This document shows positions 8,657 to 60,410 of a stretch of 64,000 nucleotides of DNA, in pieces. This DNA is from Thiogranum sp. (GTDB taxonomy: Bacteria; Pseudomonadota; Gammaproteobacteria; DSM-19610), in contig JASBSN010000043.1 of assembly GCA_030148915.1 (NCBI GenBank), positions 1-64,000 on the forward strand, written 5' to 3'. Below the pieces are notes generated by a model, which saw only the letters and a list, made by a program, of their open reading frames with translations, was not told where the DNA came from and made no database searches. The position numbers and the translations under genes were made by a program. Each line of letters starts with the position of its first letter. Position 1 is the first letter of the stretch.

Positions 8657-8885
8657 GGCGCTTTCTCCGTCTCAAGCTGCGTGTCGGTGCACGGCAGGTA
8701 AATGGGTAAGAGCAGGTCGTCGACCGCCCGGCGGCGGCCGGAGCCCGGATTAAATACCCTAGGAGAAATGCCGCCCAGACGCATTATCAAATGTTCGATG
8801 TCCACGGCCGGATACCGTGCGCCGATGCCGTTTATTCGGGTCAAATAAAACGAATAAACCGGGGGGTTATTGCATCTTGCATATT

Positions 8886-9440
8886 ATGGAACTGATACGC
8901 CGCCTGCTGGTCACCCGCGATCTCAAAAAAAGGATGGCCGATAATCGCGACCGCCTCTACCGGGTGGCGCTGGCGTGGTGTGGCGACCCGGTGGTGGCCG
9001 ACGATCTGGTGCAGGAAACGCTGATGATTTCCCTGCAGCGGGCCGCGCAGCTGCGGGACCCGGGTGCGCTCAAGGCGTGGATGCACGTGATTCTGGGCAA
9101 TTGCTGGAAAAAACACCTCCGCTGTCTGCGCCCGAGCGTGGACATCGACGAAGCGGGCCTGGCCAGCGAGAATGATGTGGTGGGCGCGTGCAGTGAACAG
9201 GAAATAGTCGAGCGCGTGAGGCGGGCGATTCTCAAGCTTCCGGTCGGCCAACGGCAGACATTGACGCTTGTGGACCTGGCCGGTTTCTCCTACGCTGAGG
9301 TCGCCGAAGTCATGGATATTCCGATAGGAACAGTTATGAGCCGGCTGTATGCCGCCCGGCAAACCTTGCAAAAAGCCCTGGCCAGTTTCCATTCGTCGAC
9401 GCCGCCCGGCACGACCACATATTTGCGGAGGGTGAAGTGA
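8886..9440 (+). CDS. ECF sigma-70 family factor
   Basis: DRLYRVALAWCGDPVVADDLVQETL (sigma2) and LPVGQRQTLTLVDLAGFSYAEVAEVMDIPIGTVMSRLYAARQ (sigma4). Confidence 0.9.
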   Translation: MELIRRLLVTRDLKKRMADNRDRLYRVALAWCGDPVVADDLVQETLMISLQRAAQLRDPGALKAWMHVILGNCWKKHLRCLRPSVDIDEAGLASENDVVGACSEQEIVERVRRAILKLPVGQRQTLTLVDLAGFSYAEVAEVMDIPIGTVMSRLYAARQTLQKALASFHSSTPPGTTTYLRRVK

Positions 9441-10144
9441 AAGAGTCCCAGTATTGTTCCGATCGCATGCTGCATGCCTACGTGGACGGTGAACTAAGTA
9501 CCGGCGAAAAGCAGGCCATGCTGTCGCAGTTTGAATCCGACCCCCAGTGCCGCAGGCGGGTGTGTGACTTGCAGCGGACCAAAGAATGGGTGCAGTTTTC
9601 GTTTGAAGGGGAGTGCGCACCGACGCGTGAGCTACCCGCGGCGCGCGCGCCTGCGTGGTTGGCCGGTACGGTGCGGGTGGCGGCCTCGGTGCTGTTGCTG
9701 GTGTTTGTCTTCGGTGCCGGCTGGTATGGGCACAGTCTGCGCGAACAGCGTGATAACCGCGCGACACTGCAACAAGCGGTCCCCGACACCAAGCACGTCA
9801 TTTTGCACATCGGCGAGTCCAACGAAAAGCTCTTTGCGGCGCTGTTGCGCAAGACCGAGGGTATTCTCAAACAGTACAGCGCCCAGGGTATTCAGGTCGA
9901 AGTGGTGGCCAACGCGGGCGGGCTGGATCTTATGCGCACCGCCGCCTCGCAGCATATCGACGATATCAAACAGTTGATCGGGCATTACCCGAATGTGCGT
10001 TTTATCGCCTGCAGCAAGGGCCTGGGGAGACTGCGCGCAAGCGGTAAGGATGCCTCTGTGATCGAGGGGGTCTACGCCCACGAACCGGCCGCCGACCATC
10101 TGATTCAGCGGCTCACCGAAGGGTGGACATTGATCAGGCTCTAA
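9437..10144 (+). CDS. Anti-sigma-factor-like membrane protein with C-terminal DsrE-like domain
   Basis: 4-bp overlap with the ECF gene; N-term MLHAYVDGELSTGEKQAMLSQFESDPQCRRRVCDL resembles anti-sigma domains; one TM (VRVAASVLLLVFVFGAGWY); C-term HVILHIGES...VEVVANAGGLDLM...VRFIACSKGL resembles DsrE/DsrF. Confidence 0.75.
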   Translation: MKESQYCSDRMLHAYVDGELSTGEKQAMLSQFESDPQCRRRVCDLQRTKEWVQFSFEGECAPTRELPAARAPAWLAGTVRVAASVLLLVFVFGAGWYGHSLREQRDNRATLQQAVPDTKHVILHIGESNEKLFAALLRKTEGILKQYSAQGIQVEVVANAGGLDLMRTAASQHIDDIKQLIGHYPNVRFIACSKGLGRLRASGKDASVIEGVYAHEPAADHLIQRLTEGWTLIRL

Positions 10145-10190
10145 TGTCGCTCGCCGCTGGTTTCGCCGCCAGGCCCGGTCTCGGCGGCAT

Positions 10191-11156
10191 TTACGGTTTG
10201 CGCAGTGGCAGTTCCACGCACATCAGGTCTTCGGCCACGGTTGGCTTGCCGCCGTAGGTTTTACCGATCTGCGCCAGGCTTTCTTCCAGTACGCTTTCGC
10301 TGCGCGGCATGATATGACTCAGCAACAGGCGCCGTACGTTTGCCTGTTCGGCCAGTTGGGCAATCTCTGTCGGACGGGCGTGCAGCTTGGCGGCGACTTT
10401 GTCGGCGTTTTCGCCCACCGCGTGGTCCATCACCAGCAGGTCGGCGTCGGCGATCATTTTGCCGAATTGCGGGTTATCCCCGTTCTGATCGCCGCTGAAA
10501 GCGATGCGTCGACCGTCGACTTCCACCAGGTAAGCCAGCGCGGGTACCGGGCCGTGAACGACGCCAACCGCTGAAACGACCAAATGCTTGGTCTCCAGGA
10601 CTTTTACCGCTTTGCGATTGTCGGCGTCGGTTTCGTACAGGGTGGTCTTGAAATAGCCCTTGGTTCCCGACAGGTAACCGGAGAGGTAGCGGAAAGCACC
10701 CTGTCCGGGGCCGATGAGTTGTTGCATGAATTCGGTCAGGCCGGGAAACTCGAGGTTACCGGAGGGGCCGATAAGCGGCAGCGCTTGTTGGCGGTCGCCA
10801 AACCAGGCACTTTTCAGATACGCGGGCAATTCCACCGCGTGGTCCACGTGCAGATGTGTCAGGGCGATGGCTTCAAGATCGGCGATAGATGCCCCCGCAC
10901 TACCAAAGCGCGCGAACGTTCCGCCGCCGGCATCCACCAGCAGTCGGGCTTTGCCATCTACCCAGATCAGATAACCGGAGCTGGCGCGCCGCGGGTTGGC
11001 GATCGGACCGCCCGATCCCAATACCTGCACACTGACCTGACCGGTGCACACCGCTTCGCCGCTGATCGGCAGCGTGGCGCTGACGATGAGCAGCAGCCAG
11101 CTGAGAAAGTGGCCTGGCCGGCGCACAGCGCAGATACTCAAGTTGGATTGCGGCAT
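10191..11156 (-). CDS. MBL-fold metallo-hydrolase, predicted exported
   Basis: LTHLHVDHAVELPAY metal site, FSGDQNGDN, LLLSHIMPR; signal-peptide-like start MPQSNLSICAVRRPGHFLSWLLLIVSATLPISGEA. Confidence 0.85.
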   Translation of the reverse strand: MPQSNLSICAVRRPGHFLSWLLLIVSATLPISGEAVCTGQVSVQVLGSGGPIANPRRASSGYLIWVDGKARLLVDAGGGTFARFGSAGASIADLEAIALTHLHVDHAVELPAYLKSAWFGDRQQALPLIGPSGNLEFPGLTEFMQQLIGPGQGAFRYLSGYLSGTKGYFKTTLYETDADNRKAVKVLETKHLVVSAVGVVHGPVPALAYLVEVDGRRIAFSGDQNGDNPQFGKMIADADLLVMDHAVGENADKVAAKLHARPTEIAQLAEQANVRRLLLSHIMPRSESVLEESLAQIGKTYGGKPTVAEDLMCVELPLRKP

Positions 11157-11345
11157 AACGGTTTCCTGGTTGACCCGGGGAGACGAATTTTTCGCACTTT
11201 GCTGCGAGGGAGCTGGAGCGTCATTCACATTTGATAATGTTAGGTTAAGGCCGCAACTGAGGGCGCGGCGTCTGTGTGGTAGGCTAGCGGCTGACGCCGC
11301 GGGGCTCAGGCCCGGCGGAGGCTTGACACTTCGAGGAGAAAGAGC

Positions 11346-11831
11346 ATGACACAATGCGTGCGCAACGTCTTGGTCGCGTTAGTTGGGGTAATCTGGATGG
11401 CCGGCGCCGGCGCCGACAATGCCACCCCCTGGGGCAGGGCCTCGCTGGAGGCGATAGACTATAAGCCGGAGAAAGTCGTTTATGATGTGGCGGTCAACAG
11501 TGTCGAGGCGCTCTCGGGGGTACTCGACCGAGTCAGCTACCTGAACAACATCTATGAGGCTGACCCTTTCGAGGCCTCGATAGTGCTGGTGTTGCACGGC
11601 AATGAAATTCCCTTTTTCAGTGTAAAAAACACCGACCGATACCGCGCATTGATGCAGCGCGCACAGAGTCTTACCCAGTCGGGTCCGATAGAGTTCCGCA
11701 TGTGCCGGGTCGCGGCCAAGGCTCACGGGTTGGAGCCCGAGGATATCCACGGTTTTGTCAAGGTCGTGCCGATGGCTGACGCAGAGATCGTCCGTCTGCA
11801 ACGGGAGCAGGGTTATGCCTACATGCGTTAA
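11346..11831 (+). CDS. DsrE family protein, predicted periplasmic
   Basis: Signal peptide plus KVVYDVAVNSVEALSGVLDRVSYLNNIYEADPFEASIVLVLHGNEIPFF and MCRVAAKAHGL, typical of exported DsrE-like proteins. Confidence 0.8.
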   Translation: MTQCVRNVLVALVGVIWMAGAGADNATPWGRASLEAIDYKPEKVVYDVAVNSVEALSGVLDRVSYLNNIYEADPFEASIVLVLHGNEIPFFSVKNTDRYRALMQRAQSLTQSGPIEFRMCRVAAKAHGLEPEDIHGFVKVVPMADAEIVRLQREQGYAYMR

Positions 11832-12840
11832 ACGTCTCGCCCGATGCGTGGGAATGGTGGTGATGCTCGTTTCGGCTACTCCGACGGCGTGGGCGGGCGA
11901 GGGCGTAGCGACGCCCTATGGACCGGTAAGCCTGCCTTTCGAGCTGCACAAAGTGCCCAAGGTTCCGGTGTATTACGTGGTCGGTCTGTCCGGGGTGCCC
12001 GGTGCGGACAACGAGGGGCATACGTCGAACGCAGGTTTTGTCGTCACCGAGGGCGGCGTGGTGGTGTTCGATGCGCTGGGTACTCCGGCGCTGGGTTACC
12101 GGTTGTTACAACGTATCCGTGAGGTCACCGACAAGCCGGTTGAGCGCATTGTCATCAGTCATTATCATGCCGACCATGTCTACGGCCTGCAGGCGTTCAA
12201 GGATCACGCCGGCAACCCGCCGGTCTGGGCCCAGCGACTGACCCTGGGCTACGTCGGTGGCAGCAGGGCAACCCAGGGTGAAGACTCGGAGCGCCGGCTG
12301 GCACAGCGGCGCGAGGCGCTGTTCCCCTGGGTGGACGAAAACACCCGCGTCGTGCCACCGGATCGGACTTTCGACGACGGCGCCAGTTTCCAGGTAGGTG
12401 GCATCACCTTTGAGCTCAAGCATCTGGGGCCGGCGCACGCGCCGGGAGACAGCATCATGCTGGTAAAGGATTACGGCGTGTTGTTCAGCGGAGACGTCAT
12501 TTACAAAGGTCGGGTGCCGTTTCTCGACAGTCCGCAGACCGACATCGACCGCTGGTTGCAGGGCTTGGACTATCTGCTGAAGCTGAAACCGCAACCGACC
12601 TATATTATACCCGGGCACGGCTCGGCGTCGCGCGACATGGGCGAAGCGATCGCCGCCACTCGGGATTATATCGACTATGTGCGGGCGGCGATGTCCAAGG
12701 CAGTGGCTGAATTCGTGCCCTTCGACGAAGCCTACGAGGCGACCGACTGGTCGAAGTACCGAAATCTTCCGGCCTTCGATGCCAGTAACCGCGGCAATGC
12801 CTACCGTATCTATCTTGAATCGGAGGCCAAGTCATTCTAG
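11815..12840 (+). CDS. MBL-fold metallo-hydrolase, predicted periplasmic (SoxH/quinoprotein-relay hydrolase-like)
   Basis: VISHYHADHVYGLQAF, HAPGDSIMLV, LFSGDVIYKGRVPF, IIPGHGSASRD; signal peptide ending AWAGE; overlaps the DsrE gene end. Confidence 0.85.
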   Translation: MPTCVKRLARCVGMVVMLVSATPTAWAGEGVATPYGPVSLPFELHKVPKVPVYYVVGLSGVPGADNEGHTSNAGFVVTEGGVVVFDALGTPALGYRLLQRIREVTDKPVERIVISHYHADHVYGLQAFKDHAGNPPVWAQRLTLGYVGGSRATQGEDSERRLAQRREALFPWVDENTRVVPPDRTFDDGASFQVGGITFELKHLGPAHAPGDSIMLVKDYGVLFSGDVIYKGRVPFLDSPQTDIDRWLQGLDYLLKLKPQPTYIIPGHGSASRDMGEAIAATRDYIDYVRAAMSKAVAEFVPFDEAYEATDWSKYRNLPAFDASNRGNAYRIYLESEAKSF

Positions 12841-12893
12841 GGAAAGCCTGCGCCGGAATGACAAAAAGGGAATTAATCAGCAATTCCTTAAGT
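12837..12893. repeat. Partial/deleted copy of the 633-755 MITE family
   Basis: tagggaaagcctgcgccggaatgacaaaaagggaattaatcagcaattccttaag matches the right half of the 633-755 element. Confidence 0.7.
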
Positions 12894-13017
12894 CTATAAC
12901 CGTCAATCCGGCCCGCCAGTCCCGTGCTGGTGTCTCACCACCTGCCCCCTGTCGTTGCCCGCCTGATGCGGATCGACGGTTGCTCCAGTCAGGCCTGACT
13001 GACCGTCGCCCGGCGAT

Positions 13018-43789: not shown

Positions 43790-44833
43790 CTAGGGGGCGG
43801 GCTCCATCAGTTCGGTGAGGCGTGCGCGCAGTGTCGCCCCGCGGGCGCGCGGTATCCGAAAGAGCCAGCCCTCCAGGCGGTCATGCAAATCGTTGTCCAG
43901 TTGTGCGTCTTCGGGGGGTTGATCCGGGGCATCGCGTGCAGCGCCGGCGACATCAAACCAGACAAACATCGCGTTGTTCCATTCGACCGTATAGGCGGTG
44001 ATCCGTAAACCGTCCCAGGTTTCAAAAACGGCCGTCACGGCCTCTGCCTGGGGCAAGCCGGCGTCAGCGCGTACCAGCATGTCATCCATCTTCAGCGCCG
44101 CAAGCCCCCTGGCGAGCGGATTGATCTGCGCGTGGTGTTTCGCCACCAAACCCTCGGGAGCGTTCCGCACGGTGTAGTCCGGAGCGCCCTGATAGGGTTT
44201 TTCTATTACCAGTGTGTCACCGTCGGGGTGGGTGATAGTCAGCCGGTGCACACGTTTCGGTTTGAGGTGGATGATGCGCCGGTCGACCCAGTCGACCGGC
44301 TGCTGCGGCACATCGAGGTGGCCGGCGACCAGCCAGGCCCGGCGTTCGCCGGAGAGGCGAATATAGATACCGTCCCGTGCGCCGGCCATCAATCCTGTTC
44401 TGACGCCGCCGACAATCAACGAGGCGACCGGTGCCGGCGCGCCGGCGTATAAACTCAGGCGGGTGTTGTCGCTCTTCTTCGACGGCGCCTGCACCCCCAA
44501 CCGCGCGTAGTTCTCCGCTTTGTCGGTTTTCGCCTCGACTATTTCCAACAGAGTTATGTCAAGCAGTAGGGGTTTGATGCGTTCAAACAGCACGGGATAA
44601 CCGCCTTTGTCCGGCAGTTGCCAGTGCTCGGCGGTTTTCACAACGTCGTATAGGTTGCCGCCGTGTTCCACTCTTATCCGCTCGATGTCGTTGAGTTGTG
44701 TGGCGAGCCGGGGAAACAGGCGTTGCTCTTCGACACGGTGCTCGGGCGGCGAGGCGCGTTGGCTCAGCAACCAGTAAGCGCCGGCCAGGAACAGCAGCGC
44801 CAGAAGAGGGATAACCAGTGTCTTACTGCGCAT
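43790..44833 (-). CDS. DUF4340 domain-containing protein
   Basis: N-terminal TM; IERIRVEHGGNLYDVVKTAEHWQLPDKGGYPV...; immediately downstream of GldG-like gene. Confidence 0.85.
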   Translation of the reverse strand: MRSKTLVIPLLALLFLAGAYWLLSQRASPPEHRVEEQRLFPRLATQLNDIERIRVEHGGNLYDVVKTAEHWQLPDKGGYPVLFERIKPLLLDITLLEIVEAKTDKAENYARLGVQAPSKKSDNTRLSLYAGAPAPVASLIVGGVRTGLMAGARDGIYIRLSGERRAWLVAGHLDVPQQPVDWVDRRIIHLKPKRVHRLTITHPDGDTLVIEKPYQGAPDYTVRNAPEGLVAKHHAQINPLARGLAALKMDDMLVRADAGLPQAEAVTAVFETWDGLRITAYTVEWNNAMFVWFDVAGAARDAPDQPPEDAQLDNDLHDRLEGWLFRIPRARGATLRARLTELMEPAP

Positions 44834-44894
44834 GTCTAGGAGCGCCTAGGTGCGAAGACGGCTGGGGGCTGAGAGGCGTACATATCCGTTGTCG

Positions 44895-46778
44895 CTACGC
44901 GCCGCTACGGCGCATACGCCGAGCGCGCAGTAGCCCCAACACCACAGCCACCACTACCACGAGCAGGGGTACCAGGCCGATATTGATGAGTTTCAGCCGG
45001 TTGCCCAGTTTTTCGATGTTGCGGGTCAACTCATGCTGTACATTACGCAGCGCCTTGCGGGTTTTGCTCTGCTCGCTCTGGAATGCGCGCAGCTCCTCGC
45101 GCTGCTCGGGGCTGATGATGAGTGTGTTCCCGTCTTCATTGCGTTGGCGAAGGGTGCCGATTTTTTGTTCGGTCTCGCTGAGTTTTATTTGCAGGGCGCG
45201 CTCCTTGGCGCGAAATTGTTTCTCGGCGGCCTCCTTCAGTGCGGCCACTTTGCCGAACGGGCGCGCCGAGCGGGCGCGGCTGCGCAGGCTGATCAGGTCG
45301 CTGCTGCCGCTTAAATTCTCCAGGGCGTTGATCAGAAAGGCGCCGTTGTCGGCGCGGGTGGCGGCCACGCGGCGACCGTAGAAGTCTTTGAAATCGACCC
45401 AGAACCGGTCCTGGAGCATGTCGCTGTCGGCCACTACGATAAGGTCCACCGGTCGTTGCGCCTCAGTAAGGCGGTGGCTGTTATCCGCGCCGTCGAGACC
45501 GTTTGGAAAAGCCGATTTAAGCTCGCCCCGGATGCGCGCAGCCAAAACCAGGGGGGTTCCGCCCGGCGCATAAGTCTGCAGCAGGTCAGTCGGCTTGGTG
45601 CCGTATTTGACATAGCCTGCGTCCAGCTGCATAGCCTGATCGCTGGTCTGAATCAGGGGCACCATCTGTGTGGTTGCGCCCGGGCGTTTGAGCAAATAGC
45701 CCGAGCTGGCCATCACCAGGCTCTGCAGATCGGCGGTGACAAAGTCCTGGTGGTTAAAAGCGTTCTTGCTCAAGCTCAGCCAGACGACATAGTCCACCGG
45801 CGTTCCGCGGCTGGTCATGACGCTGGCGGCCGCGCGCCGATCGACGGCGATATGACCGGGTGCCAGTTGCACGCCCCAGGCGTTCATTAACCGCTGCAGA
45901 TTTGCATGACGCACGGCCTCGACATATCCCTGCTCGGGGCTGGTCACCTTCGGCAGCGACGTATCGGCTTCCGAAAATGCGTCGAGAAACACAACTACCC
46001 GCCCGCCAGCCAGCACATACTGGTCAATGGCGAACAGCGTTTTATCCGGCAGATTTTTCGGATACACCAGCATCAGTACATCGATATTGTCGGCAACATG
46101 CGTCGTCTCGGTACCCAGGCTCACGACATCGAATGATTGTTTTATCTGCGTGAGGGTAAACCAGTCTTGCTGCGGCTCACTGGGCAAGGAACGCGCGGCT
46201 GCGGAACCGCCCATCGCCGGTAAGCCCGACAACAGACCCACCACGGGCTTGCGCGGATTTGCCAGACTGTAGATCAGCTTGGAGAGCGTGTATTCCAGCG
46301 CATCTTCCTGGTCCGGTTGAAAGAACGGGATGCGTCGGATATCCCCCACCGAATTGCTGCCGACCAGCCCGAAATAGGCGTAACTTCCCGAGCTCTTGCC
46401 GGGCACGCCCTGCATACCATAGCGCGCCGCCTGCTCTTCGGTCTCAGAAAACGGCTCGGGTTGTTCAACTATCAGTCGCAGCTTGCCGTCGCTGAGCGAG
46501 GCATATTCTTCGAGCAGTTCGCGCACCCGCTGCCCGTAGGTGGAGACCACGGGCATGTCGCTGAACTGTTTGTTGGAGAAATAAAAGCGCAGTGTAAGCG
46601 GTTCATCGAGATTGGCCAGAATGCTGCGGGTGCCGGCGGACAAGGTGTAGAGTCTGTTTTCGGTCAGATCGAAGCGGACGTTGTTCAGAAATACATCGGC
46701 GAACACATTGATAATCAGCAGCAGCGCGGCGAGCGCTATCAGCCCCGAGGCGGAATAAAATGCGCGCCGCGTCAGCAT
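44895..46778 (-). CDS. GldG-family ABC-type auxiliary membrane protein
   Basis: NNVRFDLTENRLYTLSAGTRSILANLDEPLTLRFYFSNKQF; IDQYVLAGGRVVVFLDAFSE. Confidence 0.9.
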   Translation of the reverse strand: MLTRRAFYSASGLIALAALLLIINVFADVFLNNVRFDLTENRLYTLSAGTRSILANLDEPLTLRFYFSNKQFSDMPVVSTYGQRVRELLEEYASLSDGKLRLIVEQPEPFSETEEQAARYGMQGVPGKSSGSYAYFGLVGSNSVGDIRRIPFFQPDQEDALEYTLSKLIYSLANPRKPVVGLLSGLPAMGGSAAARSLPSEPQQDWFTLTQIKQSFDVVSLGTETTHVADNIDVLMLVYPKNLPDKTLFAIDQYVLAGGRVVVFLDAFSEADTSLPKVTSPEQGYVEAVRHANLQRLMNAWGVQLAPGHIAVDRRAAASVMTSRGTPVDYVVWLSLSKNAFNHQDFVTADLQSLVMASSGYLLKRPGATTQMVPLIQTSDQAMQLDAGYVKYGTKPTDLLQTYAPGGTPLVLAARIRGELKSAFPNGLDGADNSHRLTEAQRPVDLIVVADSDMLQDRFWVDFKDFYGRRVAATRADNGAFLINALENLSGSSDLISLRSRARSARPFGKVAALKEAAEKQFRAKERALQIKLSETEQKIGTLRQRNEDGNTLIISPEQREELRAFQSEQSKTRKALRNVQHELTRNIEKLGNRLKLINIGLVPLLVVVVAVVLGLLRARRMRRSGA

Positions 46779-46809
46779 CGCCGTTTTGCGCTCTGCTGAA
46801 AGAGCGCCA

Positions 46810-47544
46810 TCAGTCGGATTTCCCCGTTTCTACGGCGATCACGTTGGCCATCAGCCAGCAACCAATGAAGGAGAGGAAAAAAATTGCATCGCGCAGATCG
46901 ATGACGCCTTTGGTGATTGATTCGAAGTGGCTCAGAAAACTCATCCTGCCGACCGCGTTGATCAGCGCCGGCGGCGCCCAGCCCTGGAAGATATCCATCA
47001 CCATGGGAAAACCCGCCAGGACAAAAACCAAGCAGATAACGAACGAGAACACAAAGGCGATGACCTGGTTGCGGGTAAACGCCGATACACAGGCGCCGAC
47101 GGCGAGATAGGCCCCTGCCATCAGGAAGCTGCCAAAATAGCTCAGCGCGATGACGGGATTATCGGCGTGGCCGAGATAATTGATAGTGAGCCATACTGGA
47201 AAGGTCAGCGCCAGGGCGATGCCGGTGAACGTCCACGCGGCGAGAAATTTGCCGATTACCGCCGCGCCGACCGATACCGGCAGCGTCATCAACAATTCAA
47301 TCGTTCCGCTCTTGCGCTCCTCCGACCACAGGCGCATCGACAGCGCCGGAATCAAAAACAGATAGAGCCAGGGATGAAAGGTGAAAAAGGGCTGCAGATC
47401 GGCCTGACCGCGCTCGTACAGTCCACCCAGGTAAAATGTAAAGGCGCCGGACAGCACCAGAAAGATGACGATAAACACGTACGCCACCGGGGTGGCGAAG
47501 TAGTTGCCGAGCTCTCGCCTGAGGATGGCGCCGGTCACCGTCAC
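46810..47544 (-). CDS. ABC transporter permease (GldF-like)
   Basis: 6-TM; RRELGNYFATPVAYVFIVIFLVLSGAFTFYLG; PALSMRLWSEERKSGTIELLMTLPVS. Confidence 0.92.
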   Translation of the reverse strand: MTVTGAILRRELGNYFATPVAYVFIVIFLVLSGAFTFYLGGLYERGQADLQPFFTFHPWLYLFLIPALSMRLWSEERKSGTIELLMTLPVSVGAAVIGKFLAAWTFTGIALALTFPVWLTINYLGHADNPVIALSYFGSFLMAGAYLAVGACVSAFTRNQVIAFVFSFVICLVFVLAGFPMVMDIFQGWAPPALINAVGRMSFLSHFESITKGVIDLRDAIFFLSFIGCWLMANVIAVETGKSD

Positions 47545-48524
47545 GCTGGCTCCCCGCGCTGCGCGGCTTCGGCCGGGCCGGTGATACGGCGAAACACCTC
47601 ATCGAGCTGTCCGCTCTCGACAACCAGTTCCTGGAGCTGCCAGGTTTCGGCGCGCGCCAGCTGTGCTACCTGTTTGACGATGGCCGTTGCGTTGTTGGGT
47701 AGCACCATGAGCTGATCGGCTTCGTCGCTTTGGTTCACCCGCCCGACTCCGTGCAGATCCAGCAGGCGTGCTGCGGCGTCCGCCGGGACGTTGCCTGCAA
47801 AGCGCAAACGCACCGCGTTGTGCAGACTGGACATGCACAACAGCTGCTGTGGTGTCCCGTCAAACTTGAGTCTGCCGTGCGCGATGATAATAGCGCGATC
47901 GCAAATCGCGTCCACTTCTTCGAGGATATGCGTGGAGATCAGAATAGCCTTGTCTCTGGCCATCTCCCGGATCAGTGTACGCACTTCATGCTTCTGGTTG
48001 GGGTCGAGGCCGTCGGTCGGTTCATCCATCACCAGGATCGGGGGATCGTGCAGGATCGCCTGCGCCAGTCCGACGCGCCGTTTAAAGCCTTTTGATAGGG
48101 TCTCGATGGGCTTGTAGGCGACCGAGCCCAGATTTGCCTTCTCAACGGCCGCCGCCACCCGTGAGCGCCGTTCGCGGCGGCGGTAACCGCGCATGCGGGC
48201 GATAAAGGTGAGAAAGGCGCTGACCGACATATCGGCGTAGGCGGGAGCGCCTTCGGGCAGATAACCGAGACAACGCTTGGCTTCGAGCGGCCGCCGATCG
48301 ATGTCGTACCCACCCACCCATACCTGCCCCCGGGTGGGTGCCAAGAACCCGGCGATCATCTTCATCGTGGTGGATTTGCCGGCGCCGTTGGGGCCGAGAA
48401 AGCCGAGCACTTCACCGCGGCGGACCGCGAAGGAAATGTCCTTGACGGCGCTAAAAGCGCCGAAATCTTTACCCAGCGACGCGACTTCGACCGCTGCGCG
48501 TGACTGTGCGCCGGCGCTCGTCAT
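47541..48524 (-). CDS. ABC transporter ATP-binding protein (GldA-like)
   Basis: GFLGPNGAGKSTTMKMIAGFLAPTRG; LSKGFKRRVGLAQAILHDPPILVMDEPTDGLDPNQ. Confidence 0.93.
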   Translation of the reverse strand: MTSAGAQSRAAVEVASLGKDFGAFSAVKDISFAVRRGEVLGFLGPNGAGKSTTMKMIAGFLAPTRGQVWVGGYDIDRRPLEAKRCLGYLPEGAPAYADMSVSAFLTFIARMRGYRRRERRSRVAAAVEKANLGSVAYKPIETLSKGFKRRVGLAQAILHDPPILVMDEPTDGLDPNQKHEVRTLIREMARDKAILISTHILEEVDAICDRAIIIAHGRLKFDGTPQQLLCMSSLHNAVRLRFAGNVPADAAARLLDLHGVGRVNQSDEADQLMVLPNNATAIVKQVAQLARAETWQLQELVVESGQLDEVFRRITGPAEAAQRGEPA

Positions 48525-48623
48525 GTGGGGCGGGGAGAAGATTTAATCATAGTGCCTGGAGCGGTATTTGTTAATGCAAAGTTATTTATAGCCGACTAAT
48601 CGCAAGACGCAGATGGAGCCGGT

Positions 48624-49268
48624 TTATTCTTTTTCCGTTTGCGCGGCGGCCGTTGCCGGTACCGGGCGATAGCTGACAAATTTGCGTTCAATCAGCTTTT
48701 TGTCCTGATACCAGATCTGGAAGATCCAGTCACCTTCGACGAGTTCATAGTCTTCGTTGAATACGTAGCCGTCGAAACCCATCACCTGCTGGGTTTCCAC
48801 CCGGCCTTTGAAGTGACGCTCCCAGCCGGTGGTTTTTGAGCCGTCGGGCAAGGTCATTTGCGGATGAATCAGTACTTTTTTCAGCTCCATGACCGGCTTG
48901 ATCAGCGCTTCCGGCGGCAAATCGAATAAACGATACTGATAGCCGAAATAGGTCTCTTTGAGCAAGGGGATACGATCTGTCATGCTCACGTGCTCGAGCG
49001 TGGGTTTGCGTATGACTTTGCCGGTATTGGTTTCGCTGCTGTCCTTGAGTTGGCCTTTCCGCAGTGCTTTGTAGATGCCGAACTGGAAGACGTGAGCCGT
49101 CGGCCCTTGGGACTGGGAATCGGTTGGCGCAGCGACACCCGCGCTCGCTCCGGCCTCGGTGGCGTTCAGTTCGCCGCTGGGGGCTGTCGGCTCGCTAACA
49201 CTGCTGTCGGCCGTACGTTCGCAGCCCGCCAGCGCGATAACAAACACGAGCATGATTACGCGTATCAT
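48624..49268 (-). CDS. DUF3859 domain-containing lipoprotein
   Basis: Lipobox VIALAGC; FQFGIYKALRKGQLKDSSETNTGKVIRKPTLEHVSMTDRIPLLKETYFGYQYRL. Confidence 0.75.
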   Translation of the reverse strand: MIRVIMLVFVIALAGCERTADSSVSEPTAPSGELNATEAGASAGVAAPTDSQSQGPTAHVFQFGIYKALRKGQLKDSSETNTGKVIRKPTLEHVSMTDRIPLLKETYFGYQYRLFDLPPEALIKPVMELKKVLIHPQMTLPDGSKTTGWERHFKGRVETQQVMGFDGYVFNEDYELVEGDWIFQIWYQDKKLIERKFVSYRPVPATAAAQTEKE

Positions 49269-49361
49269 AATCCGTCCTCTATGGTTCCAGCCGCCGGCGC
49301 GTATAACCAGTATCCCGGTAAGCGGTGGCTAAGTCCAGATTGATTCGGGAGAGTAGGGAAA

Positions 49362-49390
49362 AAAATAGGGGCGCTACATGCGCAGCGCCC
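49362..49390 (-). terminator. Rho-independent terminator for the 49495-50199 gene
   Basis: Minus-strand stem gggcgct...agcgccc followed by a T-rich run (plus strand: gaaaaaaatag immediately upstream of the stem). Confidence 0.7.
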
Positions 49391-49494
49391 GAGAGAGGAA
49401 GGGGTCATACTTGCTCTTTATGCCGGTTGGCGTTTTATGGTTAGTGGGCCTTCTGCGCTATAGCAGCTTGTCGTGCAGCTTGCTCGGATGCGCT

Positions 49495-50199
49495 TCAGGG
49501 ATACTGGAACCAGGCTTCCCGGGTCGCCGGCGACAGCCCGTGGCTGGCACTGTCAGTACAGTGCGAAACCACCCTGATCAGAAAAGGTGTGCCTTCCTGA
49601 CCGGGCTCTCTGGGATCGGCAATCGCCGTGGGGACATTGGCGTGTCCTTCGTGTCCGGGCCGCGAAGTTGTCGTCATCTGAAACGGGTAGGCGCCGCGTA
49701 CCAGCGGAAAATCGAGCGTAGTCTTGAACTCGCCACGGCCGGATGCATCAGTGGTGAACGAGTTGATTGATGCGCTGGCCCCGGCGGGGTCCACCCACGG
49801 ACTGATCCCGTTCAGGGCGTCGAGGGCGGAGCCTGGCGCCAGCGGGGTTGCGCCGCCGCCGGTCAGAGGGCTGCCGGCGCTGTTCAAGCCGTTCTTGCCC
49901 TTGATGCGGACCCACACGGTGAACAGCGTGTCCGGCGCGGCGCCATTGACTTCGATCTCGACACGGCTTGCGTCGCCCTTCTGGCTGACTTCGAGCGTCG
50001 CGGTCGCGCCCTGCCAGCCGTTACCGCTGGGGTCCAGTGCGCAGTTGGCCTCGACGGTGTCGCCGCTACCACTGGCTGAGCCGGGGCCTCGCCGGCTCAT
50101 GTTGTCATCTATCACGCTGGAGCCGGCCAGTGCCATGGAAGAGGCCGCGCCCATTGTCAGCAGCGTAACGGCGAGTGTCGTCATTTTGAAATTGATCAT
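49495..50199 (-). CDS. Hypothetical secreted protein
   Basis: Signal peptide MINFKMTTLAVTLLTMGAASSMALA; beta-rich sequence with C-terminal SHCTDSASHGLSPATREAWFQYP; no family recognised. Confidence 0.7.
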   Translation of the reverse strand: MINFKMTTLAVTLLTMGAASSMALAGSSVIDDNMSRRGPGSASGSGDTVEANCALDPSGNGWQGATATLEVSQKGDASRVEIEVNGAAPDTLFTVWVRIKGKNGLNSAGSPLTGGGATPLAPGSALDALNGISPWVDPAGASASINSFTTDASGRGEFKTTLDFPLVRGAYPFQMTTTSRPGHEGHANVPTAIADPREPGQEGTPFLIRVVSHCTDSASHGLSPATREAWFQYP

Positions 50200-50311
50200 C
50201 GTTGCATACCCTCTACTTTTGTTTTGATAGTTAAACAAGTTATGCGCCCCCGGCGAACGGCCGCTGAACCGGTCAGGGCAAAGTCCACCGGGAGCATCTC
50301 CCAACAGCTAC

Positions 50312-51856
50312 TTACTGAACGAACGCTTCGTGAATGACCATCAGCATGCGCGGATCAACAAAGTCCGTGCCGCCGGTGACATTGTCGCGGCCGAGATAGG
50401 TGGCGATTGGCTGGGCGCAGCCACTATTGTCGGCGCCGGCGGCCTGATCACCGGTGCAGGTGCCGTCCTGGGCATCGGCGTCTTGCGGTGCGATCGAGTA
50501 TTCACCGACGCCGCCGCCCTGGACGAAGCAGCGCGCCGGGGGTACCGATCCGTGCTCCGTGCAGCCCGGGTTATACGCCGATGAGGCGATCAGCAGGGTC
50601 TCGACGTCACAGGCGGTACCCGCCGGGTTGCTGCCGTTTGCCGTCGGGCCACCGATATTGTCGCAGGCCACCGCGGACATACGGTTGGGGCGAATGCCGG
50701 CAATGACGTTCACGCCCGGGTCCAGACCGATGGTGCGCGAGGGGAAATCGTCGCCGAAATCGACCACGTCAACGCGCTGCCGGAACACGCTCGGGTTACA
50801 GCCACCCGGTGTGCCGGGAACTTCGCCGCGCAGACAATCGCGCGAACGCGCACGGTCGGTGACATAAATGGTACCGTCCTCGTCGTAACCCCAGGCGCGC
50901 AGCGAGTCACGGCGCGACGGGTCATCGAGCGGTTTGCCCGGGCGCAGGTCGATCCAGCGGCTGACGTGAGCGCGGTTCTTTTTATCGCCGAGCTCGAAGT
51001 GCTCGTCCAAATCATTAGAACCCACTCCTGCCACGTCGTCTTTAAGACCGCGTTTCCAGTCCACCATGGCGATGGCGGCGCCGTGGAACATGCTCAGCCC
51101 CATGCCTTCGCTGCTGAAGGCGATACCGGCGATACAGGTCCAACGGGGATCCTTGTTTTTTGGTTGACTGTATTCGTCGATCACCTGCATGGTTTCCTGG
51201 TCGATGACCAGCACCCGGCTGTTGGCATTGCGCTCGGCGGTCGTGTTGACGGGCGGGAAGTACTGATTGGCCTCCAGTCCGCCTTCAGGCGCCACATCGG
51301 AGTTGGAGGCGTTAAAGAAGTTCGCATCGCAGATGGCCTGCACCAGGTTACCGTTGGGCATCATCTGTGTTCCCAGCGGCCGCGGTACGGTGCCGCGCCC
51401 GGCGGGGCCGGTGGGATTACCGAGCAGCGGGCGGTAGGAGACGGTACGGATCGGCGTGCCGTCACGATGAAATTCGGTCAGCGCCTGCTGGCCGGCACTG
51501 GTGATGAAGGCGTGTCCGTTCAGACCGCCCGAGAGTACGCCGGTCGGTTTGAACGGACCCGGGCATTCCAGATTGCCGCTGCCATTTTCGCACACCGGGC
51601 CGTTGGGGTCCGCGGAGCCGCCAAAGGGATTACTTACCGTAATGCCGCGCGCGCCTGTGACGATACTGACTTCCAGCACCTGGCCGGGACCCTGCACGCC
51701 AAACGGAGCGTTCATGGCGTCCGCCATCATGAAATTGGCTTCCAGACAGGCCGGTTGGCCGACCTCATCCAGACCGTGAGCGGTGACGCCGCCGGCAACC
51801 ATGGCGAGACCCAGGCCGTAGGCCAGGCTCGTAAGTGGTTTTATTGTTGATTTCAT
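50312..51856 (-). CDS. Hypothetical secreted Cys-rich beta-propeller-like protein
   Basis: Signal peptide MKSTIKPLTSLAYGLGLAMVAGGVTAHG; repeats of GN.V..., VLVIDQETMQVIDEY; multiple Cys; no family recognised. Confidence 0.7.
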   Translation of the reverse strand: MKSTIKPLTSLAYGLGLAMVAGGVTAHGLDEVGQPACLEANFMMADAMNAPFGVQGPGQVLEVSIVTGARGITVSNPFGGSADPNGPVCENGSGNLECPGPFKPTGVLSGGLNGHAFITSAGQQALTEFHRDGTPIRTVSYRPLLGNPTGPAGRGTVPRPLGTQMMPNGNLVQAICDANFFNASNSDVAPEGGLEANQYFPPVNTTAERNANSRVLVIDQETMQVIDEYSQPKNKDPRWTCIAGIAFSSEGMGLSMFHGAAIAMVDWKRGLKDDVAGVGSNDLDEHFELGDKKNRAHVSRWIDLRPGKPLDDPSRRDSLRAWGYDEDGTIYVTDRARSRDCLRGEVPGTPGGCNPSVFRQRVDVVDFGDDFPSRTIGLDPGVNVIAGIRPNRMSAVACDNIGGPTANGSNPAGTACDVETLLIASSAYNPGCTEHGSVPPARCFVQGGGVGEYSIAPQDADAQDGTCTGDQAAGADNSGCAQPIATYLGRDNVTGGTDFVDPRMLMVIHEAFVQ

Positions 51857-52077
51857 CAGTGTTGAGCTCCTCACAATATTTAGTATTGGTAGAATGAGTG
51901 TTATGTAGCGAAGGCATGCGGCGCGCCTGAGCGGCCGCTGCTAAAGGTAGGGAGGCGCGAGCGGTGTAATTTATTCGAATTTACTTAGCATCTTAAGGCA
52001 CATAAAGACTGAATCTATGCCGCCGCCAGAGCGGCCCAATTTGAATAATGCCCGGACTGGCGCGTCTGAAGAAGAAT

Positions 52078-52629
52078 ATGAGTCTCTTAAATCAGATTTT
52101 CTCCCGCCGCGACCAGCGCAGGACAATCGCCGCTGACCGCGACCGCCTCTACCGCGTGGCGTTGTCCTGGTGCGGGGACCCCATGGTGGCCGACGACCTG
52201 GTTCAGGAGGCTCTGCTTATCGCCCTGCACAGCATCGATCAACTGCGGGACAGCCGCTGTCTGAGTGCCTGGATGTACCGAATTCTCAGCAACTGCTGGC
52301 ACCAGCACCTGCGCCAGCTGCGCCCGATGACTGACATCGATGACGCCAGCATCGTCAGCGACACAGACGCGGAATCCTGCTGTTGCGAACAACAAACCGT
52401 GGCCCGGGTCCGGGCCGCTATCTTGAAATTACCGCCCGGACAGCGCCAGACCTTGACGCTGGTCGATCTGGGCGGATTCTCTTATGCCGAAGTTGCCGAG
52501 GCATTGAATATTCCTATTGGTACGGTGATGAGTCGCCTGCATACGGCGCGCCGTTCGTTGCGGAGACTTTTGCTGGGTATCTGCGACTCGACGCCCGTGC
52601 CGGTGGCCCGGATAGGCGACCTGAAGTAA
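52078..52629 (+). CDS. ECF sigma-70 family factor (paralogue of 8886-9440)
   Basis: DRLYRVALSWCGDPMVADDLVQEALLIALHSIDQLRD and LPPGQRQTLTLVDLGGFSYAEVAEALNIPIGTVMSRLHTARR; near-identical motifs to the 8.9-kb ECF. Confidence 0.9.
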   Translation: MSLLNQIFSRRDQRRTIAADRDRLYRVALSWCGDPMVADDLVQEALLIALHSIDQLRDSRCLSAWMYRILSNCWHQHLRQLRPMTDIDDASIVSDTDAESCCCEQQTVARVRAAILKLPPGQRQTLTLVDLGGFSYAEVAEALNIPIGTVMSRLHTARRSLRRLLLGICDSTPVPVARIGDLK

Positions 52630-52916
52630 GGTATTCCGGCCTGCCCAGCGCCTTCTATCTGTGACTTAACGCACAGAAGACTCCGTATCACCGGACAAAT
52701 AACTCCGAAAGCTAAAAATATCGAATAAATCCGGCGTCTGAATACTCTCTCATCGGCGGGTTCGGATGGGACGGTTTGCGGCGGCCTGGATTAAATCCGC
52801 CGCTTTATCCGTCTTTCAGTGTGGGAGCTATTTTTCTCTAAATAATAAGTTCTGCAGAAAATAATAAACCTGCGACCGTACCGGTACGGAAAAAAATAAT
52901 GTTTAGGAGAGGAGCG

Positions 52917-53618
52917 ATGTTGAATGAGGTTCGACATACGGCAGGCGTAATAAACCATCAACAGACCTGGCTGAAGCAAATTCCCGGTCTACAGCATATT
53001 ACCGAGGATGTCTGGAAGGAGGCGTTGACCAAATCCGAAATTATTTCATTTCCCGCCGGCGCCAAATTGGTGCAGTGCGGCGACGCTGCAACCCATTTTG
53101 TGATTGTTCTGAAAGGCGTTGTCCGGGTGTTTCAGATCGCGGAAAGCGGCCGGGAGATTTGTCTTTATCGGGTGCGCAGGGGGCAGGTCTGCGTGCTGAC
53201 CTTGACCAAGCTGCTCACTACCCGGGATATTTTCGCCCAAGCGGTGGCTGACGAAGATGTGCGCATTCTGGCCATGCCTATTGACTATTTTCGGCGCCTA
53301 ATGGCCGAGTCCGAAGATTTCAGGCAGCATGTCATGTGCTCCATGGCCGATAGTTTTACCGAAGTGGTTCAACTGGTGGCCAATGTCAGTTTTCAGCGTC
53401 TGGAATTAAGGCTGGCGTGTTTGCTCGGAAAACTGGCTCAAGCGGAAACCTCCTGCACACTCAAAGTCACCCATCAGGAAGTCGCCAATGAATTGGGGAC
53501 TACGCGTGAAGTGGTCAGCAGGATATTGAAAGATTTCGAGAACATCGGTTGTATTAAGCTGCGCCGCGGCAGCATTGAAGTGCTGTCGGGCGAAACGCTG
53601 CAGGGGATCTCCGGTTAA
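52917..53618 (+). CDS. Crp/Fnr family transcriptional regulator
   Basis: Cyclic-nucleotide-like domain and C-terminal HTH TLKVTHQEVANELGTTREVVSRILKDFENIGCIKLRRGSIEVL. Confidence 0.92.
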   Translation: MLNEVRHTAGVINHQQTWLKQIPGLQHITEDVWKEALTKSEIISFPAGAKLVQCGDAATHFVIVLKGVVRVFQIAESGREICLYRVRRGQVCVLTLTKLLTTRDIFAQAVADEDVRILAMPIDYFRRLMAESEDFRQHVMCSMADSFTEVVQLVANVSFQRLELRLACLLGKLAQAETSCTLKVTHQEVANELGTTREVVSRILKDFENIGCIKLRRGSIEVLSGETLQGISG

Positions 53619-54357: not shown

Positions 54358-55800
54358 TCAGTCCTCGTCATCCGGCGCCACCACCTGCAAGGTCTTAAGA
54401 AACTTCACCACAGCGATCTGATCTTGCGCGGCGCTGGCCAGAAACAGATCGCGGGCGCTGCGCGCTTCCCCGCCGTGGGCGAGTATCGCTTCGGCAATGG
54501 TGGTCAGATCCCCGCGGTGTCCATAGGGTGCCGAGTTACCCACGTCCCATAGTTTGCGCGTCAGGAAGAACTCGGTGCCGGGTTTACCGTCCTGGTCAGG
54601 ACGACCTTGCGCCAGGTGCTCATTGCAGAAGTGGCGCACCGGATCCGGGTCCGTAACCTCGTCGCACAGGTTATGGCGCTTGAGATCGGTGTAGGCGCGC
54701 ACGATCGCACCACCCTTTTTGCCTTTCTCCAACAACGGACCCTCGCCCTGTTTAGTCATGTCGAAGCGGTATTCGGGACAGACCGTGATATCGCTGCAAG
54801 TGCCCGGTGGATTAAAGGGGTTGGGTTCGACAAAGAAGCGGCTTTGCAGCTCTAACTTAGGTACATGGCAGGAGGTACAGCCGACGTCATCGAATACCTC
54901 TTCACCGCGCTGAACGCGTTCGCGCTCCTCTTGGCTTTTCGGCATAGCCCGCCCGGGTACCCCGAGCTGCGCTTGCCAGAGCGTATTGGCGGTGATGTCG
55001 CCGACGGTCAGTTCGCGCGCTACGCCGTCTTCGTCGAAATCCGGATCAAAGCCTTTTGCCGGGTTCATATCGAAGCGCTCTTCGGCCTGCATGCCGTGGT
55101 GGTGGTTCATCGCATTGGCGGTGAACTCGCGCAGAGAAATAACCACTCCGGCCTGGTGAAAGGGCTTGACGACCAGATCAGTATCGACGCCTCTACTCGC
55201 TGTGACGACCCCCCCGAGCTTGGTGATTTCAAAATTTATGCCCTTGGTGGTCAGCGTGTGCGCGCCGTCGGGTAAAGCGCCCGCCTGAGTCTGGAGGTCG
55301 ACGGTCATTTCACGCGACAGCATTTCAATCGCGCCCGACCCGTTCATGCCTAGGGTATTGCGCTCGTTGCTGAACTCAGGGGCCACCGAAAAATTAACCG
55401 GATCGGCCGCCTGTGCGAGCACGAAAACGCTGGTGACAATATCACCGGCGCCGCCGGCGCGCGGTTGCGCATGGCACCCGGCGCAGGAATTGGACTCCGG
55501 CGCCGAGGTGCGGATAAAGGCCGGTTCATCGGCTACCCGTTTATCTCCGGTACCGGTGGCGGAAGGGCGCCCCTGCCCGTCGCAGGTATTGAATCGTGCG
55601 ACGAACAACGCTTCGCCGGCATCGGTGATCTGCTTAAAACTCAACGCACCGCTGTTGATGTCGGTTTGATGGACGTGCCCGGACAACACCGGCGCGTCCG
55701 GAAAACCGGCCGCGCAAGTATGAATTTCGTGCGCCGTTGCCGCTATCGGCATCAGTGCCAACGCCAATACCACAGGAATGCTTGGATGAGTAGCTGTCAT
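54358..55800 (-). CDS. Di-heme oxidoreductase (DHOR/DUF1111 family, putative peroxidase-like c-type cytochrome)
   Basis: Two CxxCH motifs (CAGCH, CTSCH), KLWDVGNSAPYGHRGDLTTIAEAILAHGGEARSARD; signal peptide. Confidence 0.88.
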   Translation of the reverse strand: MTATHPSIPVVLALALMPIAATAHEIHTCAAGFPDAPVLSGHVHQTDINSGALSFKQITDAGEALFVARFNTCDGQGRPSATGTGDKRVADEPAFIRTSAPESNSCAGCHAQPRAGGAGDIVTSVFVLAQAADPVNFSVAPEFSNERNTLGMNGSGAIEMLSREMTVDLQTQAGALPDGAHTLTTKGINFEITKLGGVVTASRGVDTDLVVKPFHQAGVVISLREFTANAMNHHHGMQAEERFDMNPAKGFDPDFDEDGVARELTVGDITANTLWQAQLGVPGRAMPKSQEERERVQRGEEVFDDVGCTSCHVPKLELQSRFFVEPNPFNPPGTCSDITVCPEYRFDMTKQGEGPLLEKGKKGGAIVRAYTDLKRHNLCDEVTDPDPVRHFCNEHLAQGRPDQDGKPGTEFFLTRKLWDVGNSAPYGHRGDLTTIAEAILAHGGEARSARDLFLASAAQDQIAVVKFLKTLQVVAPDDED

Positions 55801-56305
55801 GTTTTTCTCCGCTCAGTGGAAGTCCCTTAACTGGAACTTGTTTCAGTGGTAAAAAATTCCGCTATTTTTTGGCAGACCGGAGCAGTCATGCCAATGGCGG
55901 GTTCCGCTTGTAGTTCGTATGGCGCGCAAGTTGGGTTTCGGGCGCATGGTTAGAATGACTCTTAGAGCAAATCTAAATTAAGCCTGGCAGACGTGTCTGT
56001 AATATTTGATACGCTTGCAAAGATTTATTCGGGATGACCTTCAAAAGCTCTGTCGCGCATGTAACACGGGCTTTGCACGGCGGACTACGGTGGATCGTTG
56101 GTAAACACCGCTGTTAAAACCATTGTGATAGTTGGTACACAAAAGAGTTTGTCTATAGCGCCAAGCAGCCGCGCACTGGTCACCAGTGGATAAGCGATTC
56201 ATGTCGATCTATCCCCATTGATTGCTGCGGGGGGCTGCAGATCAGGCGGTGGAGAGCCCGGTGCGGAAAAATGAATAATCCCGCCGGTATTGCTATCTAC
56301 ATAGG

Positions 56306-56344
56306 GTCGCCCCGTGGACGGAATCCTTCCGTCGCCGGGGCGAC
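56306..56344 (+). promoter_or_regulatory. Structured 5' leader stem-loop upstream of 56401 gene
   Basis: gtcgccccg-tg-gacggaa-tcc-ttccgtc-gc-cggggcgac: 9-bp stem, 2x2 internal loop, 7-bp stem, 3-nt loop. Confidence 0.75.
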
Positions 56345-56349
56345 GACGA

Positions 56350-56367
56350 GGCCGGTTTTTGCCGGCC
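56350..56367 (+). promoter_or_regulatory. Second leader hairpin upstream of 56401 gene
   Basis: ggccgg-tttttg-ccggcc. Confidence 0.7.
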
Positions 56368-56400
56368 TGATTTTACGTTCAGACTTGGAGGAGTAATCTA

Positions 56401-57663
56401 GTGAATGCAAAAGGAAAGCAGCAAGTGAGACCGGTGTTGACCGCGGCCGCCCTAGCCGGCGCCCTGGCCGCGGGCCTGAGCCTCGGTGTACTCGCCGACG
56501 GCAAAGAAAAGTCGGATGATCATGGCAGGTTCGACAATATCATTACCGCTGTTGTCGCGCCGCCCGTGGTCAGCAACGGTCAGATAGCCGGCGAGCCGAC
56601 CGAGCTTATCGCGGTCCTCAATGCCCCAGGTGCGCCTGACAATCTCGCCGCCGACCCCAACAACTTCGGTCATCAGATCCCGGCTGGCGGGCGTATGGAA
56701 GTGGAGGTCGGCGGGAGTATTGAACGTAACGGGGTCGATAACGATAAAGCCTTCGTGCCGGTTACCAGCAACGCATTTTTTGTTCTGGTCACCGGGTTGC
56801 CACAGATGCCGATTACCGCGGCGGCGGGTGATGGGGTGCAACACGGTAACTACCGCATTGTCGATGATGGCAACAAAATGATCACCGTAATCCCCAACGG
56901 TGGGAGCGGCGCCAATGGTCTGGAGCAGGCTCGGGCAAACCAGATTGGGTTCAAAGTCGTGCATATCCGTCCGCGACCCAATACCAACGCCGGGCCCGCG
57001 CCTTTTACCAACGGGCCGGAGGGCAGCAAGGGGACCTTGAAGATCCGTATTTTTGACGCCGCGGGAAAACTGATGGAAAAGGGTAAGGGAAAAATATACT
57101 TTCCCGCCGCGGTGGGAAGAGTGGTTGGCGCCACCAACGCCGGCCTGGCTACCGGTGCGCAAGGCAGCCCGGCGACGGTGACCGCTGAGCTTGTCGAATC
57201 AGTAACCTTTCAGCACATCGCGCCTGAGACGGTCCTGTCAAATACCGTGCGTAGCGGCTCTTTTTCTGCCGGCGCGCCTTACGCCCCGCGTTTTTTGCTG
57301 TTTGAAGAAAGAGCGGGTCAACCCGATTCGTTTATCCCCTTTAAAGGCATTGCCGCGGTGGGTTATGTCGTTGATGCGGAAAAACCCTGGAAAGCCGATC
57401 TGGTGGTGGACTCAAACGGCAATGGTGTAGCCGATGAGGACGACGAAGAAATCGGTGACATCGAGATACAGGGTCCGTCCAAGCAATCGCGCGGTACACT
57501 GATGGCGAATTCTTCACTCACCAGTTCCGGCGACGGCGTGAGCGGACCGAATGGCAGCATCTTGAATGTACCTGTGCAGGTTGGTGGGCAAAGCGGCGTT
57601 TATACCGTGGCGGTTTCCTTGGAGGACGGTAATCGCGCAACTACTATATTAGTAGTAGAATAA
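56401..57663 (+). CDS. Hypothetical secreted protein of unknown family
   Basis: GTG start after GGAGGA; signal peptide VLTAAALAGALAAGLSLGVLADG; beta-rich, C-terminal Ig-like feel (VPVQVGGQSGVYTVAVSLEDGNRATTILVVE). Confidence 0.75.
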   Translation: MNAKGKQQVRPVLTAAALAGALAAGLSLGVLADGKEKSDDHGRFDNIITAVVAPPVVSNGQIAGEPTELIAVLNAPGAPDNLAADPNNFGHQIPAGGRMEVEVGGSIERNGVDNDKAFVPVTSNAFFVLVTGLPQMPITAAAGDGVQHGNYRIVDDGNKMITVIPNGGSGANGLEQARANQIGFKVVHIRPRPNTNAGPAPFTNGPEGSKGTLKIRIFDAAGKLMEKGKGKIYFPAAVGRVVGATNAGLATGAQGSPATVTAELVESVTFQHIAPETVLSNTVRSGSFSAGAPYAPRFLLFEERAGQPDSFIPFKGIAAVGYVVDAEKPWKADLVVDSNGNGVADEDDEEIGDIEIQGPSKQSRGTLMANSSLTSSGDGVSGPNGSILNVPVQVGGQSGVYTVAVSLEDGNRATTILVVE

Positions 57664-57682
57664 GCAAAGCACGTTATGACCT

Positions 57683-57711
57683 GGGCCCGCTTTTAAAGCG
57701 GGCCTTTTTTT
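57683..57711 (+). terminator. Rho-independent terminator
   Basis: ggcccgctttt-aaagcgggccttttttt immediately after the 56401-57663 stop. Confidence 0.95.
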
Positions 57712-57928
57712 GTATCTACTATCACAATCGTTTTATAAGACTGGATTATTTTCGTCTCGGGTAACCTGGGTTACATACCTGTTCGCCAATCTGTTTCATT
57801 ATGCGCGGCAACAAAAGCGACAAATCGGCAGCGCCGACATTTGTCCAGGAGGTTGGAGTGGCAGGTTCGGGTGTGAGCGTTACCCAGGCTCACCAGAAAA
57901 ACACAATTACCTAGGAGCTGGAGGGAAA

Positions 57929-59614: not shown

Positions 59615-59670
59615 AGCGGCGCGGCAGAGAACCCTGAGTCGGTGCACATGATCGGAATTCCAAGGAGTCT

Positions 59671-60306: not shown

Positions 60307-60410
60307 CACCCAGCGTTCCCGCGGGAACTGAGCTGGTGGTACACACACAATATTCCCCTGTGGCGCCTAGGCGAACACCGCCGTGCCGCCGGGGAGGAGG
60401 TGAAAAAACA

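Follow-up and report, generated by a model that had tools for sequence, protein, structure and literature searches.

A candidate transmembrane sigma/anti-sigma switch with an extracytoplasmic DsrE domain in sulfur-oxidising Gammaproteobacteria

What signal reaches an extracytoplasmic function (ECF) sigma factor when its anti-sigma factor carries a DsrE-like domain outside the membrane, and which genes respond? The question is raised by a locus in the window analysed here, a 64,000-nucleotide stretch of Thiogranum sp. (contig JASBSN010000043.1 of GCA_030148915.1). The source genome comprises 135 contigs that total 3.2 Mb, and its named relatives are metagenome-assembled genomes of Thiogranum and Thiohalobacter, Gammaproteobacteria of sulfur-oxidiser genera. 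A sequence-only reading had described five genes at this locus: an ECF sigma gene, an anti-sigma gene with a DsrE-like ectodomain, an exported metallo-beta-lactamase-type (MBL) hydrolase on the minus strand, an exported DsrE protein and a second exported MBL hydrolase overlapping the latter. All five exist (Table 1). That reading also proposed that the ectodomain senses sulfur and that the adjacent genes are the induced set; the first part stands as the likely role of the ectodomain, and the second is not supported. We put at roughly 60% the probability that the pair at 8886-10144 works as a sigma/anti-sigma switch across the membrane, in which an extracytoplasmic DsrE domain senses periplasmic sulfur and thereby frees the sigma factor for a family of related promoters. 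In the following, names such as L035 or G002 are locus and genome labels of this analysis.

The sigma factor consists of regions 2 and 4 only, which identifies it by Pfam as an ECF sigma factor. Its gene has the arrangement of a sigma gene co-transcribed with a membrane anti-sigma gene from an autoregulated promoter: the two genes overlap by 4 bp (9437 versus the sigma end at 9440), as the sequence-only reading had it, a transmembrane helix occupies residues 76-100 of the anti-sigma factor, and a family promoter, described below, precedes nearly all sigma genes of this type. From the sequence, the promoter at 8847-8880 is predicted to drive both genes, and the binding of the sigma factor by the anti-sigma factor is likewise predicted. 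Since this promoter lies downstream of the listed GTG at 8817, the start of the sigma gene is ATG 8886. Open reading frames such as 8841-9767, which run over this gene on the opposite strand, have the look of frame shadows.

The anti-sigma factor is composed of a cytoplasmic three-helix domain (residues 9-55), the transmembrane helix and an ectodomain (residues about 117-235) that contains His124, a single cysteine, Cys192, and Gly229-Trp230. A Pfam scan gives no DsrE match in the C-terminus. A profile built from 35 anti-sigma relatives and compared with PDB structures matches 1L1S (E 6e-21) and 2PD2 (E 1e-9); the AlphaFold2 model of the ectodomain has a predicted local distance difference test (pLDDT) value of about 96, and Foldseek aligns it with 1L1S at a template-modelling (TM) score of 0.89 and also with 2PD2, YchN and the DsrE of DsrEFH. 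Because both the profile and the model match DsrE structures, the lack of a DsrE-like fold, which had been named as the result that would speak against the proposal, does not arise, and the ectodomain is DsrE-like as claimed. MTH1491 (1L1S) and ST0148 (2PD2) share this fold, and their HI, AC and GW-Y motifs align with those of the ectodomain, but they are stand-alone proteins that lack a transmembrane helix or an anti-sigma domain. The conserved cysteine of the DsrE/DsrF superfamily is aligned with the cysteine of 1L1S in 102 of the 102 ectodomains compared; each contains exactly one cysteine, always at this position, and Trp230 is invariant. On this alignment, a lone cysteine speaks against a switch by an intramolecular disulfide; it would fit an intermolecular bond, or loading as a persulfide or thiosulfonate.

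In its general plan, the protein resembles RseA and MucA, which are also single-pass anti-sigma factors with a cytoplasmic helical domain and a sensory ectodomain, although here the ectodomain has the DsrE fold and is linked to sulfur oxidation. The N-terminal domain matches MucA weakly (6IN7, E 0.93). Membership in the zinc-binding anti-sigma (ZAS) class was considered and rejected: the HxxxCxxC motif is absent, there being no invariant His or Cys in this domain in the family alignment, and zf-HC2 remains below its cut-off.

Sigma/anti-sigma-DsrE pairs are conserved in 22 of 56 relatives. Full-length family proteins occur in 66 of the 369 genomes of the class sample, in about 40 families, and a sample of 399 genomes across the phylum added only two further carriers, both of the same class. 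SoxB is encoded in 64 of the 66 carrier genomes versus 84 of the 303 others (p=1.5e-27), and by this measure the family tracks sulfur lithotrophy. In the tree, the copy of the window groups with its two nearest sisters (support 100/99), and the surrounding clade of nine is fully supported.

The gene neighbourhood was counted over 101 loci. An exported DsrE protein is encoded at 57 of these and a porin of the Porin_O_P type at 46, usually divergently from the sigma gene; all 58 exported DsrE partners examined keep the cysteine. At L136 and L150, the sigma/anti-sigma pair runs directly into soxX-Y-Z-A-B, with dsrE and the porin gene divergent, and at L161 a sox operon lies close to the pair. The SoxB neighbours of L116, L142 and L154 were excluded from the sox linkage as SoxB-like 5'-nucleotidase relatives (100-180 bits versus a cut-off of 550). 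Note that at these loci (L116 1-1362, L142 3286-5460, L154 4494-6626) the nucleotidase relative is divergent from the sigma/anti-sigma pair, with strong family promoters in both directions. In many genomes, one anti-sigma clade (L061, L064-L067, L069-L071) adjoins groES-groEL and glnE and has neither dsrE nor a porin gene beside it.

To find the promoter, bipartite words upstream of the sigma and dsrE genes were counted without supervision, and a position weight matrix (PWM) was derived from the resulting motif, GGAATAAA-N13/14-CRTCTA. Of the 101 sigma genes, 97 are preceded by a PWM site, and so are 42 of 47 exported-dsrE genes, compared with 3 of 740 shuffled regions. A PWM for which only the sigma genes served as training set detects sites before 29 of the 47 dsrE genes, with hits in 0 of 470 shuffles and in 10 of 470 random windows of the same loci. 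As an independent test, 40 sox regions of carriers were compared with 40 of SoxB-positive non-carriers at a site score of at least 16; sites before sox genes were found in 14 of the former and in none of the latter. The soxX gene of the window's own genome (L184) has such a site (score 20.0), as do the soxX genes of the sister genomes G008 and G016. In G003, the pair looks broken, with an anti-sigma factor lacking the ectodomain (L074 5422-6252, 10758-12001), and a family promoter is still found before a nearby soxX. For the regulon, the whole genome was searched by a strict pattern and selected stretches were scanned by PWM. The strict pattern occurs ten times in the 3.2 Mb, three of them inside the window, and its reversed control never; seven window sites score at least 16, versus 0.2 expected in shuffled sequence.

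From these computed results, the ectodomain is a likely sulfur sensor, because its fold is confirmed, its single cysteine is invariant, its carriers co-occur with SoxB, and family promoters stand before sox, dsrE and porin genes. Our proposal is as follows. As long as no signal arrives, the sigma factor would be held by the helical domain that the anti-sigma factor has in the cytoplasm. A sulfur species of the periplasm, which could be a persulfide, a polysulfide or a group derived from thiosulfate or tetrathionate and might be handed over by an exported DsrE protein or SoxYZ, would load Cys192, and the resulting change in the ectodomain would free the sigma factor directly or via regulated proteolysis. 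The freed sigma factor would then transcribe the promoters of the above motif, which, taken over the whole family, stand before the sigma operon, before exported dsrE with an anion-porin-like gene, and before sox genes. The sulfur ligand, the cysteine chemistry and the release step, whether conformational change or proteolysis, are what we infer. A precedent is DsrE3A, in which a thiosulfate group is transferred from tetrathionate to a cysteine and then handed on (PMC4175335).

Several points weigh against this proposal. The ligand is deduced from fold and context, and DsrE3A belongs to another DsrE subfamily and does not react with polysulfide or thiosulfate (PMC4175335). The SoxB co-occurrence statistic ignores phylogeny, although the carriers span about 40 families. 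Within the stretches scanned, 26 of the 40 carrier regions have no site before sox genes. Beside the window's copy there is no sox gene, porin gene or dsrE of the family type, so divergence may have affected its signal or its output. Finally, the presence of several sigma paralogues with similar promoters makes cross-talk likely, and it is by inference that sox would be assigned to any one of this genome's paralogues. Another ECF sigma/anti-sigma pair of the same genome is found at L005 965-2265 (G000:C64), and its ectodomain has no match to the DsrE profile.

Among the alternatives, the ectodomain may mainly be a docking module to which the exported DsrE protein binds as a co-inhibitor, as RseB does with RseA, and from which it departs on loading or titration. 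Hetero-complexes are known for DsrE proteins (DsrEFH, 2HY5), and the exported DsrE is both the commonest neighbour and a carrier of a conserved cysteine. However, an exported DsrE is missing from the vicinity of many members, the one near the window's copy is of a distant DsrE type, and even there the single cysteine is invariant; we regard this explanation as improbable. Slightly less credit is due to a sensor that responds in general to stress in the envelope or to the redox state of thiols, for instance to misfolded porins or to oxidants like HOCl, the sulfur linkage then reflecting host lifestyle only. Such a sensor would agree with the frequent response of ECF systems to envelope stress and with the porin and exported proteins among the predicted targets, and a single cysteine could give an intermolecular disulfide or a sulfenic acid; against this stand the SoxB co-occurrence, the strong sox promoters in carriers only, and the relation of the DsrE fold to sulfur-transfer proteins. 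Very unlikely is the induction of the adjacent MBL1, exported DsrE and MBL2 genes as a periplasmic sulfur detoxification set, for which their adjacency, kept also in L035 and L036, is offset by the absence of family promoters before MBL1 or dsrE at all three loci, by DsrE-MBL2 units without sigma in G002, G007, G018 and G019, by other neighbours beside sister anti-sigma genes, and by the PDB matches of MBL2, among which no persulfide dioxygenase is named.

Conservation of the neighbourhood, which had been proposed as a check, holds widely for the sigma/anti-sigma-DsrE pair, while MBL1, DsrE and MBL2 stay beside it in two sister genomes only; in the four relatives named above, DsrE-MBL2 is a stand-alone two-gene unit. 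MBL1 is probably outside the sigma regulon. Neither MBL protein attains a curated family cut-off in NCBIfam; MBL2 scores 142.2 bits with TIGR04559 (SoxH-related PQQ metallohydrolase 2), below the threshold of 280. The likely starts are ATG 11156 for MBL1 and ATG 11815 for MBL2, the latter giving a 17-bp overlap with dsrE. Just past MBL2 there is a family-promoter-like site (12865-12898, score 16.3) with no plus-strand gene close downstream, which may be due to chance or belong to a small RNA.

The probable targets of the window's paralogue are its own operon and a cluster at 43.8-57 kb (exported 520-aa protein, ABC operon, second sigma factor, Crp/Fnr-type regulator and multicopper oxidase), not the adjacent MBL genes. 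The pairing of a site with the GldA-like ABC operon recurs at the sister locus L041 (site score 27.4). Homologues of the exported 520-aa protein (50312-51874) flank the closest anti-sigma relatives (L038-L041), and at L041 one of them directly adjoins the sigma/anti-sigma pair. Because the site/ABC pairing recurs where the 520-aa protein adjoins the pair, the cluster appears to be the ancestral output of this paralogue. The 520-aa protein has no Pfam or NCBIfam match, and its structure model is not interpretable (mean pLDDT 43.7). The second sigma factor (52078-52629) is 61% identical to the first and belongs to the same clade, with no anti-sigma gene after it; its gene is divergent from that of the 520-aa protein. 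The conserved cluster at 43790-51874 comprises the exported 520-aa protein, an exported 269-aa protein and a lipoprotein, then a GldA-like ABC ATPase, a permease, ABC_transp_aux and a further protein. Another cluster (54358-62348) contains a di-haem oxidoreductase, a multicopper oxidase, an SCO1-like protein and two large exported proteins that match no family.

Table 1. Genes of the locus and predicted family promoters in the window
Feature	Position	Strand	Remarks
Predicted ECF-type promoter of sigma/anti-sigma	8847..8880	+	CGAATAAA-N14-CATCT; PWM 21.4; strict-pattern match
ECF sigma factor	8886..9440	+	184 aa; Pfam Sigma70_r2 and Sigma70_r4_2 well above cut-off
Anti-sigma factor	9437..10144	+	N-terminal cytoplasmic domain, one transmembrane helix, DsrE ectodomain
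MBL1, exported RNase Z/arylsulfatase-type MBL hydrolase	10191..11156	-	no family promoter
Exported DsrE-family protein	11346..11831	+	Pfam DsrE 25.9 bits vs cut-off 22.7; conserved Cys
MBL2, exported SoxH-related MBL hydrolase	11815..12840	+	below TIGR04559 cut-off
Predicted family promoter	48602..48634	-	before GldA-like ABC operon 43790-48524 (minus strand); PWM 19.6; strict match
Predicted family promoter	51948..51981	-	before exported 520-aa protein 50312-51874; PWM 16.8
Predicted family promoter	52038..52070	+	before orphan second ECF sigma gene 52078-52629; strict match
Predicted family promoter	52784..52817	+	before Crp/Fnr-type regulator gene 52899-53618 (label assigned by reading, not family search); PWM 18.9
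Predicted family promoter	56268..56301	+	before exported-protein gene 56401, then multicopper oxidase 57710-59614 and SCO1-like 59671; PWM 16.5

Among known systems, RpoE1 and RpoE4 of S. meliloti with their anti-sigma factors (ECF26, sulfite response) likewise form autoregulated pairs of an ECF sigma and a downstream anti-sigma gene that respond to inorganic sulfur metabolism; the likeness to ECF26 is one of description. They control the periplasmic sulfur-oxidising enzyme SorT, with sorT as the target versus sox, dsrE and porin genes here, and the accessible part of that work reports no DsrE ectodomain (PMC3511301). Thiosulfate oxidation genes are also governed through Cys-sulfur chemistry by SoxR and sHdrR, sulfane-sulfur repressors of the ArsR type that act on sox and shdr (PMC10451225, PMC12423496). 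These are cytoplasmic DNA-binding repressors with two sensing cysteines, whereas the system in the window has a single-cysteine domain outside the membrane and a sigma factor as output. SoxR-type repressors depend on sulfur signalled through the membrane protein SoxT1B (PMC11582611), and in Thermus, a CsoR-family regulator is reported to control sox (PMC10318464). In the open literature, we found no description of an anti-sigma factor with a DsrE ectodomain; the main ECF classification paper was outside this search and may already list part of the family. The combination of a DsrE anti-sigma factor and an ECF sigma factor is widespread and, as a bacterial switch, apparently undescribed.

The evidence for the family is good, and we hold the sulfur-sensing role with moderate confidence. 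The wider generalisation, to which we give slightly less than even odds, is that single-cysteine DsrE ectodomains would be direct receptors for extracytoplasmic sulfane sulfur or thiosulfate, switching on Sox, the exported DsrE and the anion-porin-like protein throughout sulfur-oxidising Gammaproteobacteria, as an extracytoplasmic counterpart of SoxR-type repressors. With its readable motif, its one invariant cysteine and its sox/dsrE/porin targets, the proposed switch can be tested directly, and it predicts regulons in dozens of families of sulfur oxidisers. Known sox regulators are cytoplasmic, and the way in which regulators of sulfur oxidation detect sulfur outside the cell has been called poorly understood (PMC11582611); this system may give many sulfur-oxidising bacteria their means of sensing extracytoplasmic sulfur.

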